Position numbers and translations under genes: made by a program
Notes under the pieces: generated by a model
What the model saw: the letters and a program-made list of their open reading frames with translations, nothing else
Told to the model about the DNA's origin: nothing
The model's database searches: none
Source of the DNA: Trueperaceae bacterium
Lineage (GTDB): Bacteria; Deinococcota; Deinococci; Deinococcales; Trueperaceae
Length of the DNA: 64,000 nt
Reading direction: 5' to 3'
Assembly: GCA_036381035.1 (NCBI GenBank)
Contig: DASVDQ010000021.1
Coordinates: 62,001 to 126,000, forward strand
Shown: one piece after another, positions 57,538-60,605 of the stretch
Numbering within the stretch: the first letter of the stretch is position 1
Layout: the number at the start of each line of letters is the position of its first letter

Positions 57538-59637
57538 TCAGTCGCTGGCCGCGGAGGCGGCGTCCAGGCGGGCCTGGATGGCGTCGAGCCGCGACGCCAC
57601 GAGCTGGGCGACGTCGAGCACCGCGGGCGCGCCCTCAGACTGCGCGCTCTCGCTCGAGCCGAGCATGACCTTGCAGAAGGGACAACCGGTCGCCACGACC
57701 TCGGCGCCGGTGGCGAGGGCCTGAGCGAAGCGCTCCTCGGACACGCGCCTGTCCCCCGGCTCCTCCTCCTTCCAGAACTGGGCGCCGCCGGCGCCGCAGC
57801 AGAAGGAGTCGTTGCGGCTGTGCTCCATCTCGACGAGCCTCGTGCCGCCGGCCTTCAGCACCTCGCGCGGCGCGTCGTACACGCCGTTGTGGCGCCCCAG
57901 GTAGCACGGGTCGTGGAACGTGATCGTGCGCGTGTCGGCCAGCGGCGGCAGGCGCCCCTCGGCCGTGAGGCGCTCGATGAGCTGCGTGTGGTGCACGACC
58001 TCGTAGTGGCCGCCCAGCTGCGGGTAGTCGTTCACCAGGGCGTTGAAGCAGTGCGGGCAGGTCGTGAGCACGAGCTTGCTCTTCGCGCTGTCCAGTTTCT
58101 CCTCGATGAGCACCGAGTTCAGGGTCTCGACGTTCTCGCTGGCGAGCTGGTAGTAGAGGTACTCGTTCCCGGCGCGCCTGGCCGGGTCGCCGGTGCAGCG
58201 CTCGGCCTTGCCGAGGACGGCGTAGTTCACCTTGGCGTGCTCGAGGATCCGCACCATCGCCTTCGTCGTGCGCTGCGCGGCGGGGTCGTACGAGCCGGCG
58301 CAGCCGACGAAGAACAGCACCTCGAAGCCCGGGTTCTCCTCGACCGTCGGCACGCTCAGGCCCTCGGCCCAGGCCATGCGGTCGTCCTGGGCGATGCCCC
58401 AGGGGTTGCCGGTGCGCTCCATGCCACGGAACGCGTTCTGCAGCTCGGCGGGGAACTCGCCCCGCATCATGACGAGGTCGCGCCTGATGTCGACGATGTC
58501 GATCATCTGCTCGCAGCCCACGGGGCAGACCTCCATGCAGGCGCCGCAGGTGGTGCAGGCCCACACGGCCTCTGGCGAGATCGCGAACTCGATGAGCTCC
58601 CTGGGGCTCTCCTCGCCCCTGGCGAAGGCCTCGGCGATGAGGTTGAGCTCGTAGCGCTTGTTGATCTCGAGCGCCGCGGGCGAGAGCGCCTTGCCGGTCC
58701 GGTTCGCCGGGCAGACGTTCGAGCACCTGTTGCACTGGATGCAGGCGTAGGCGTCGAGGAGCTGCGGGAAGCGCAGGTGCTCGAGCTTGGCCGCGCCGAA
58801 CTGCTCGGCGGTCTCGTCCTCCAGGTCGAGCGGCTCGAGCGCGCCCGTCGGCACGGGCGAGAGGTCGTCGCGACGGCGCTCGAGCGCGAACTTCGCCGGC
58901 GCGGCGAAGAGGTGGATGTGCTTGGAGCGCGGGAAGTAGGGCAGGAACGCCAGGACCAGGCCGAGCGCGCCCCACCAGCCGACGTGCCAGCCGAGCATGC
59001 GCCCCTCGCCGAAGCCGACGAGCCCGGCGATGGTCGAGGCGAACGGCTGGAACGGGTCGGCGTGGCCCTCGGCGGCCAGCAGGAACGACTCGGCCGTGAG
59101 GCGGAAGCCCACGTGCAGGAGGATGAAGAGCGCCACGATCAGCGAGTCGCGCCGCACGCCCCCCTGCCTGACCTCCTCGTGCAGGTGCGTGCGCTCGTTC
59201 TGCCGCATCGCGGCCGGGCGCACCAGGAACCGGCGCAGCAGGAAGAAGACGATGGCGACGAGGATCAGGACCGTGACGACGTCGGACAGCAGGCGGTAGG
59301 CGTCGCCGACGGCGCCGAGGTCGAGGCGCGCGGTGAAGCTGCGCGGCAGGAAGCCGTTGAGCCCGTCGATGACGTTGACGAACAGGTAGAGGACGAAGCC
59401 GTAGAAGACGAAGGCGTGGAACGTGCTGGCCACGGGCCGGGCGCGGAACACGGTGCGCTGAGAAAGCGTCCTCAGCACGCCCTGCACGGCGCGCGTCACG
59501 AGCCGGTTCGTGCGCGGCAGCGGGCCCGCCTGCCCGCGCGCGATGACCCTCACGACCCGCGCGAAGCCCACGTACGTCAGGTAGAAGGACGCGCCGGCCA
59601 GCAGGACGAAGGCGACCTTCTCGGCGACGGTGAGCAC
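57538..59637 (-). CDS. Membrane-bound Fe-S oxidoreductase (HdrD/GlpC-like, CCG domains)
   Basis: A 699-residue protein. The N-terminal 250 residues hold five or so membrane helices with a NarI-like cytochrome-b pattern. Two [4Fe-4S] ferredoxin motifs follow, CIQCNRCSNVCP (near 297) and CTTCGACMEVCP (near 359), and two CCG domains: VGCAGSYDP (near 442) and FHDPCYLGRHN with SFCCGAGG (near 608). This layout is the (Fe-S)-binding quinone reductase type associated with electron-transfer flavoprotein or lactate/glycolate oxidation. It transfers electrons to the quinone pool at the inner membrane. GTG start with AGGAGGGAAG upstream. Confidence 0.9.
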   Translation of the reverse strand: MLTVAEKVAFVLLAGASFYLTYVGFARVVRVIARGQAGPLPRTNRLVTRAVQGVLRTLSQRTVFRARPVASTFHAFVFYGFVLYLFVNVIDGLNGFLPRSFTARLDLGAVGDAYRLLSDVVTVLILVAIVFFLLRRFLVRPAAMRQNERTHLHEEVRQGGVRRDSLIVALFILLHVGFRLTAESFLLAAEGHADPFQPFASTIAGLVGFGEGRMLGWHVGWWGALGLVLAFLPYFPRSKHIHLFAAPAKFALERRRDDLSPVPTGALEPLDLEDETAEQFGAAKLEHLRFPQLLDAYACIQCNRCSNVCPANRTGKALSPAALEINKRYELNLIAEAFARGEESPRELIEFAISPEAVWACTTCGACMEVCPVGCEQMIDIVDIRRDLVMMRGEFPAELQNAFRGMERTGNPWGIAQDDRMAWAEGLSVPTVEENPGFEVLFFVGCAGSYDPAAQRTTKAMVRILEHAKVNYAVLGKAERCTGDPARRAGNEYLYYQLASENVETLNSVLIEEKLDSAKSKLVLTTCPHCFNALVNDYPQLGGHYEVVHHTQLIERLTAEGRLPPLADTRTITFHDPCYLGRHNGVYDAPREVLKAGGTRLVEMEHSRNDSFCCGAGGAQFWKEEEPGDRRVSEERFAQALATGAEVVATGCPFCKVMLGSSESAQSEGAPAVLDVAQLVASRLDAIQARLDAASAASD

Positions 59638-59739
59638 TGGCTTCCCTCCTGCCCGTACGGGGCGAACGCGGCCTGGGCGGCTGCCTGACGCCCCACTTTA
59701 CTGTGACCCCGTTCATCACACCTCCCGCGTCGGGGGCGA

Positions 59740-59745
59740 TAGAAT
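59740..59745 (+). promoter_or_regulatory. -10 box of the candidate small RNA
   Basis: TAGAAT; expected transcript start near 59752. The -35 region is not recognisable. Confidence 0.4.
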
Positions 59746-59751
59746 CCTGCC

Positions 59752-59919
59752 ACCACGGGAAGGAGGTGGTCCGTATCAGCGAGAGTTCCGATGTGACCAG
59801 TGGAGGTGCCCGTCGAGGGTAACCAGGACCGCCTCCTGTGAGAGGAAGGAACCGTGGGTTCCCCTCAATCCAGGCGGACACCGGCTCGCCCCGCTCTCAG
59901 GAGCGGGGCGAGTTCTCTT
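59752..59919 (+). ncRNA. Candidate structured small RNA with terminator
   Basis: A roughly 165-base transcript is predicted from the TAGAAT box to a strong terminator. It contains a 12-bp stem, 59761-59772 with 59826-59837 (one G-U pair), enclosing a smaller hairpin (59805-59807/59822-59824 and 59809-59811/59817-59819). A second hairpin is GGAACC/GGTTCC (59848-59853, 59857-59862) extended by GAGG/CCTC around an AA bulge. A competing pairing, CCGCCT (59829-59834) with AGGCGG (59872-59877), would break the long stem. No downstream gene lies on this strand within 600 bases, so it is not an obvious leader. It does not match 6S, SRP RNA, tmRNA or a riboswitch I know. Confidence 0.55.
59885..59919 (+). 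terminator. Intrinsic terminator of the candidate small RNA
   Basis: Perfect 12-bp stem CTCGCCCCGCTC (59885-59896) with GAGCGGGGCGAG (59901-59912), TCAG loop, then TTCTCTT. The T-rich tail is on the plus strand only. Confidence 0.75.
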
Positions 59920-60599: not shown

Positions 60600-60605
60600 T
60601 CTCGA

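Follow-up and report, generated by a model that had tools for sequence, protein, structure and literature searches.

Ms_IGR-5 (Rfam family RF02471) is an actinobacterial sRNA that is filed as non-coding, and no function is given for it in the literature that could be searched. It is supported by RNA-seq in S. lividans (PMC8079986), is recorded as a transcription unit in S. avermitilis (PMC8780764) and has been found as transcripts in M. smegmatis (PMC10454040); ribosome-protected reads lie on it in both M. abscessus and M. smegmatis (PMC4974804). The RF02471 model passes its cut-off in 102 of the 148 sampled genomes of one actinobacterial class (that of genome G113, mycobacterial relatives included). 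The raiA/ModT RNAs (RF03072) are likewise a free-standing, abundant, structured class, found in Actinomycetota, and the dual-function sRNAs SgrS and SR1 likewise carry a small ORF. A further parallel is provided by the start control of infC (encoding IF3) and sigR, in which a non-canonical start codon follows a strong Shine-Dalgarno (SD) sequence. IF3 represses AUH-type starts (PMC5472188), and non-AUG starts accompany extended SD sequences in S. aureus (PMC13009471).

The RNA described here lies on the + strand of a 64-kb window (the whole stretch of DNA that was analysed), on contig 21 of an assembly whose relatives, by genome search, are Trueperaceae (Deinococcota). It shares with Ms_IGR-5 a 5' ACACGGGAAAGGAGGUGGUCC element, the helices H1, P0 and P1 (the last directly before the terminator), a tiny ORF ending at P1, its size, its single copy and the lack of a conserved neighbour. 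An RNA filed as non-coding, and as widespread as Ms_IGR-5 is in that actinobacterial class, carries a strictly kept tiny ORF; together with the fold, this ORF offers a direct, testable handle on an RNA to which the literature searched gives no function.

Identity and distribution of the RNA

The RNA spans positions 59750–59919 (+), with a 5' end estimated from a −10 promoter box, TAGAAT (59740–59745, +). R1, a covariance model derived solely from 15 Deinococcota copies, matches positions 59750–59884 at 108 bits, and the match is followed by a 12-bp intrinsic terminator with a UUCUCUU tail (59885–59919, +), detected by folding. The box and the terminator with its U-rich tail are present as reported in a preliminary description of the sequence, as is a bulged hairpin at about 59842–59866. 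In the homologs listed, Actinobacteria included, a TA-rich −10-like hexamer is similarly spaced from the RNA core, and a GC hairpin occupies the place of the terminator. The + strand of the element folds better than 200 of 200 shuffled sequences (z −3.8), and a good fold is likewise obtained for the minus strand (z −3.1), so folding energy alone cannot pick the strand. A TGTGA-N9-TCACA palindrome (59702–59720, +), tentatively CRP/FNR-like, is centred about 41 nt 5' of the likely transcript start. TGTG..CACA palindromes are similarly placed, near −41, 5' of many Trueperaceae homologs (L003, L004, L008, L020 and L025–L027).

The preliminary description had proposed conservation in relatives, an Infernal/Rfam search and covariation as checks, and all three were carried out. 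A search with R1 recovered one copy each in 39 of the 111 genomes of the phylum, so the element is not a product of chance; it is a real, conserved, structured, single-copy RNA. The copies come from 32 of 39 Trueperaceae genomes (family f1) and from the sister families f2 (3 of 4) and f3 (4 of 4), with none from families f4 and f5 among the R1 matches listed. The RNA was also present in 32 of 39 Trueperaceae genomes by blastn with the region as query. One complete, single-contig Trueperaceae genome (G020) has no copy by R1, though its genus mates carry the RNA, which must therefore be dispensable in this organism. Pattern matches in genome contigs outside Deinococcota, and model matches in Thermaceae and Chloroflexota were judged by eye to be chance matches in coding sequence.

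The RNA had been described as unassigned, and no Rfam family reaches its own cut-off in the window. In a permissive search, the best full-length match is RF02471 at 29.2 bits (E 5e-5; cut-off 45), with an alignment that covers the whole model (1–184), terminator included. The Deinococcota homologs score 26–42 bits against RF02471 (42.3 for the best copy), all below 45, and they therefore constitute a sister branch rather than members of the family as defined; the family occurs in Actinobacteria, whereas the kin found here by genome searches are Deinococcota. In the reciprocal test, R1 (Deinococcota only) recovered all 41 of the 41 actinobacterial Ms_IGR-5 sources offered, at full length and with E values of 2e-9 to 1e-4. 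Judging from these sequence matches, the Deinococcota RNA and actinobacterial Ms_IGR-5 are homologous.

Fold, extended Shine-Dalgarno sequence and tiny ORF

The conserved fold, all on the + strand, includes two covarying helices, one of 4 bp at the 5' end (P0) and one of 10 bp closing just before the terminator (P1). P0 pairs CCAC (59753–59756) with GUGG (59800–59803) and displays compensatory changes at three of its four pairs, the second of which appears as C-G, A-U, G-C or U-A. H1 pairs UGGUC (59767–59771) with GACCA (59795–59799), with the start codon in its loop, and the 10-nt bulge between P0 and H1, GGGAAGGAGG (59757–59766), presents the SD core in the consensus fold. P1 pairs GGUGCCCGUC (P1a, 59805–59814), which lies inside the ORF, with GGCGGACACC (P1b, 59873–59882), directly before the terminator, and P2 pairs GAGGG (59815–59819) with CCCUC (59862–59866). 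The AGGCGG before the terminator, for which CCGCCU had been proposed as a partner, belongs instead to P1b, and its pairing with P1a is accompanied by compensatory changes. The Rfam structure line of Ms_IGR-5 has neither P0 nor P1 as found to covary here, and the fold of that family needs to be redrawn with both helices added.

Because MAFFT misregisters P1 by 1 nt between the two phyla, pairing was counted on sequences aligned by fitting to a model; alignment A3 has 79 rows, of which three are stray matches. As P1b was picked by pairing energy and A3 was fitted to the structure, the following numbers lean towards the fold: P1 pairs in 657 of 680 cells (68 copies), against 568 ± 7.5 with partners swapped, and in 567 of 600 cells in 60 held-out copies; P0 pairs in 494 of 512 cells, against 447 ± 3.4 with partners swapped; and the paired share of cells is 90.8% in A3, 75.7% in its shuffles (0/500) and 36–50% in slid versions, with two-sided changes in 17 of 24 pairs. 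An independent sign for P1 is the position of the helix, which, as read from the aligned copies, is at the same place in both phyla; its sequence has been replaced between them, yet it remains paired (GGUACCCGUC/GACGGGUAACC versus GGUGGCUGCC/GGCAGUCACC). P0 too has changed in sequence between the phyla and kept its pairing. A phylogeny-aware test in the manner of R-scape, run on every column pair (about 8500), is weak: P1 pairs rank second in Deinococcota and first in Actinobacteria, but E stays above 1 unless the count is restricted to the proposed pairs.

The extended SD sequence, AAGGAGGUGGUCCG (59760–59773, +), forms 14 contiguous pairs with the 3' end of 16S rRNA, G-U pairs allowed; neither strand of the 64-kb window has a longer match of this kind. 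A strong anti-16S sequence had been noticed in the preliminary description, and it proves longer than was claimed. The 16S tail used (GCGGCUGGAUCACCUCCUU) has an exact match in 48 genomes of the phylum, two of them Trueperaceae, the organism's own 16S being absent from the assembly. In the homologs examined, the complement runs to 13–18 contiguous pairs (up to 18 in f3), and the pairing energy over 68 RNAs ranges from −20.8 to −34.6 kcal/mol. Substitutions within it are limited to pairing-compatible changes; in the f2/f3 copies L230–L232, for example, GGGGG replaces GGAGG and pairing is kept through G-U. This stretch can be taken to act as an extended SD sequence because a conserved tiny ORF follows it.

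This ORF, ISESSDVTSGGARRG (59775–59822, +), starts with AUC and has 15 codons plus UAA; it was found by reading backwards from the conserved UAA of GGGUAACC. The description of the element as a free small RNA, if read as purely non-coding, does not hold, and the remark that no + strand gene follows applies to long genes only, none of which occurs until near 60600, since the 15-codon ORF sits inside the RNA itself. An in-frame AUH start with a stop is conserved in Trueperaceae: the start is AUC in 17, AUU in 10 and AUA in 4 of the 31 copies, a non-canonical codon in every one, as in infC, and the AUU of the held-out copy L233 brings the total to 32/32. It sits 7–9 nt past GGAGG (5 nt in one count), compared with 10–12 nt in Ms_IGR-5. 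The Trueperaceae ORFs have no internal stop, while the other frames carry stops in 26/31 and 10/31 copies; in 14 of the 31, the rest of the ORF is free of AUG, GUG and UUG, and a stop codon stands immediately 5' of the AUH in four copies (L012, L029, L030 and L063). In the sister families, the start is CUG (L038, L040 and L041) or UUG (L039), and the held-out copies L230–L232 have a CUG start and a stop, identified by eye. Deinococcota starts are never AUG or GUG, and their stops are UAA, UAG or UGA throughout.

Ms_IGR-5 differs in starting with AUG, GUG or UUG, as codon 1 does in 33 of 33 copies of the actinobacterial discovery set, in which the stop is UAG, UGA or UAA. In 60 held-out actinobacterial copies, a start codon was found 7 or 8 codons ahead of GAG in all 60, with no internal stop, and the stop fell at the predicted codon in 59, the remaining copy (L149) ending one codon later; the other two frames contained stops in 42 and 55 of these copies. 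Over 93 actinobacterial copies, UUG is used 40 times, AUG 40 times and GUG 13 times, in ORFs of 12–13 codons. A non-coding reading, based on H1 loop lengths varying by non-multiples of 3, was rejected: the odd indels lie between the SD sequence and the start, and the stretch from start to stop stays in frame.

The stop codon is always just 3' of P1a. A 1-nt difference between the phyla (GUGGAGG versus GUGAGG) shifts the frame of the ORF relative to P1, and the peptides bear no resemblance to each other (..TSGGARRG in Trueperaceae versus ..TREVAAR in Actinobacteria), so that this RNA, compared with SgrS and SR1, has a peptide that is not conserved across phyla. The start near the SD sequence and the stop just after P1a persist in both phyla despite this shift. 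Within each phylum, the variable codons (2–4) can change freely, and those that are conserved coincide with helix arms: Trueperaceae peptides end in TSGG-A/T/S-R-R-G, and all actinobacterial peptides have E8 and V9 and nearly all have T6, the codons of these residues overlapping H1 and P1. A literature search for the peptide or motif returned nothing relevant. The act of translation is favoured over the peptide because frame and peptide differ between the phyla while the positions of start, stop and P1 persist; it is probably translation as such that matters, with the invariant E-V of Actinobacteria calling for caution.

The UUG, AUG and GUG starts, as found in Actinobacteria, are tolerated by IF3. 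In Trueperaceae, infC itself begins with AUA, AUU or AUC after GGAGGUG (L235–L240 and L243–L245, at about 1490; starts assigned by eye), and with AUA, again by eye, in the window's own genome (L238). By analogy, the Trueperaceae tiny-ORF start is possibly controlled by IF3 as in infC, although infC and sigR encode full proteins and the ORF here has only about 15 codons. If these starts were gated by IF3, the RNA would be unusual among small RNAs in sensing the fidelity of initiation.

Proposed ribosome gating and competing explanations

Two mutually exclusive stems had been proposed for the RNA, and the long one is present: the strand GGACCGCCUCC (59826–59836, +) can pair with GGAGGUGGUCC (59762–59772) and hide the SD sequence. 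Such a masking strand sets this RNA apart from Ms_IGR-5. CCUCC is found in the interior of 21/31 Trueperaceae copies, 0/4 copies from the sister families and 7/93 actinobacterial copies, and the stem with CCGCCUCC is accordingly enriched in Trueperaceae but not family-wide. The Trueperaceae masking duplex has a mean energy of −16.0 kcal/mol, versus −11.2 kcal/mol in shuffled interiors; Actinobacteria display no masking excess over shuffled sequence. The masking helix crosses P1, which makes the two mutually exclusive as nested folds, and P1 is the competing stem. As the excess is found only in Trueperaceae, the two-state idea is supported for that family only.

The reading proposed here, evenly poised between being right and being wrong, is that this RNA, free-standing and akin to Ms_IGR-5, is a switch gated by ribosomes; the conserved folds around the ORF suggest that it may respond to ribosome traffic as such rather than to the peptide. 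Comparison shows a promoter-like −10 box, a P0/H1 fold displaying the extended SD sequence in the 10-nt bulge, a tiny ORF of about 12–16 codons with its stop just past the P1 5' arm, and a 10-bp P1 that closes directly before the terminator. On the proposed reading, the 13–18-nt complement would dock 30S subunits strongly. A start of the kind that IF3 rejects (AUU/AUC/AUA in Trueperaceae, CUG or UUG in the sister families) would limit entry into elongation, which may thereby signal the state of IF3 or of initiation. On its way through the tiny ORF, the peptide of which is probably not the point, a ribosome would strip P0, H1 and P1 and, on terminating at the stop, would cover P2. In the closed state, P1/P2 would be shut or, in Trueperaceae, the SD sequence would be masked by CCGCCUCC; in the open state, the interior and P1b would be freed for a partner or for decay. 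Against this reading stand the lack of the RNA in G020, the actinobacterial starts, which IF3 tolerates, and the invariant residues of the actinobacterial peptide.

The RNA could instead be a decoy that holds small subunits via its anti-16S sequence, perhaps in slow growth, with the poor start parking the subunit. The preservation of the 13–18-nt complement by pairing-compatible substitutions only, the near-cognate starts and the ribosome reads on Ms_IGR-5 (PMC4974804) would all suit a decoy, but it would need neither an in-frame stop nor an open frame, both of which are strictly kept, and the actinobacterial copies of many species have efficient starts; this explanation is rather unlikely. 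A plain small-protein gene or dual-function sRNA making a functional micropeptide is unlikely as well. It would account for the conservation of an ORF whose start and stop codons alternate, for the invariant E-V and mostly conserved T of Actinobacteria and for the Trueperaceae ending; it fits poorly with a frame and sequence that differ between phyla, with free codons 2–4, with conserved residues falling on the H1/P0/P1 arms and with P1-codon substitutions that are often non-synonymous but compensated in P1b. An sRNA that base-pairs with mRNAs via its exposed loops, and whose stability alone is set by translation of the ORF, appears very improbable: the transcript is free-standing with a terminator and its interior loops vary freely, as in trans-acting sRNAs, but no conserved single-stranded seed was seen in the homologs except the SD bulge.

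The neighbourhood bears on the last alternative. Most Trueperaceae copies adjoin a divergent Fe-S oxidoreductase gene, whereas the downstream gene varies; actinobacterial neighbours vary too. The preliminary description was right to see a structured RNA that stands alone, carries a promoter-like box and a terminator of its own and has no downstream gene. The combination of a tiny ORF, alternative stems and a terminator would suit a riboswitch, or an attenuator with a leader peptide, that serves a neighbouring gene, but this explanation is scarcely credible and largely refuted by the lack of a conserved same-strand downstream gene in the Deinococcota and actinobacterial loci compared, where the downstream neighbour is mostly convergent and variable in both phyla. 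In the window, the Fe-S oxidoreductase (HdrD-like) occupies 57538–59637 (−), and its divergent pairing with the RNA is kept in many Trueperaceae.

Probably analogous designs in other bacteria

Identity with raiA/ModT was ruled out, as its model (RF03072) gave no match in the genome at E<=1. The CC2171 sRNA of Alphaproteobacteria (RF01867), the model of which scores 17.9 bits against the window, below its cut-off of 75, resembles this RNA in having a AAAGGAGGUGAUCC element, a short ORF and a helix that closes immediately ahead of the terminator, but is without P0/H1. Five CC2171-like loci (L209–L213, at about 1500–1700) carry AAAGGAGGUGRUC, a GUG/AUG ORF of 24–26 codons beginning (V/M)SHC and a CAUUGUC/GACAAU helix just before the terminator, its 5' arm inside the ORF. 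R1 did not recover these loci as a group, matching one of the five at E 0.03, and a comparison of the sequences indicates that CC2171 and this RNA are likely to be of analogous design. It is tempting, if doubtful, to see in them a class of free-standing translation-initiation sensors, combining an ultra-strong ribosome site, a poor start and an ORF that serves only to place the ribosome on the closing helix; both Deinococcota and Actinomycetota would have such sensors, and CC2171 would by analogy extend the class to Alphaproteobacteria. Two Azospirillum loci (L214 and L215, at about 1500–1700) have the same GAAAGGAGGUGAUCC leader and MSH start, followed by a longer ORF encoding a secreted/membrane-like peptide (MSHGASPVVAALFGLATLLTAGIANADC...).
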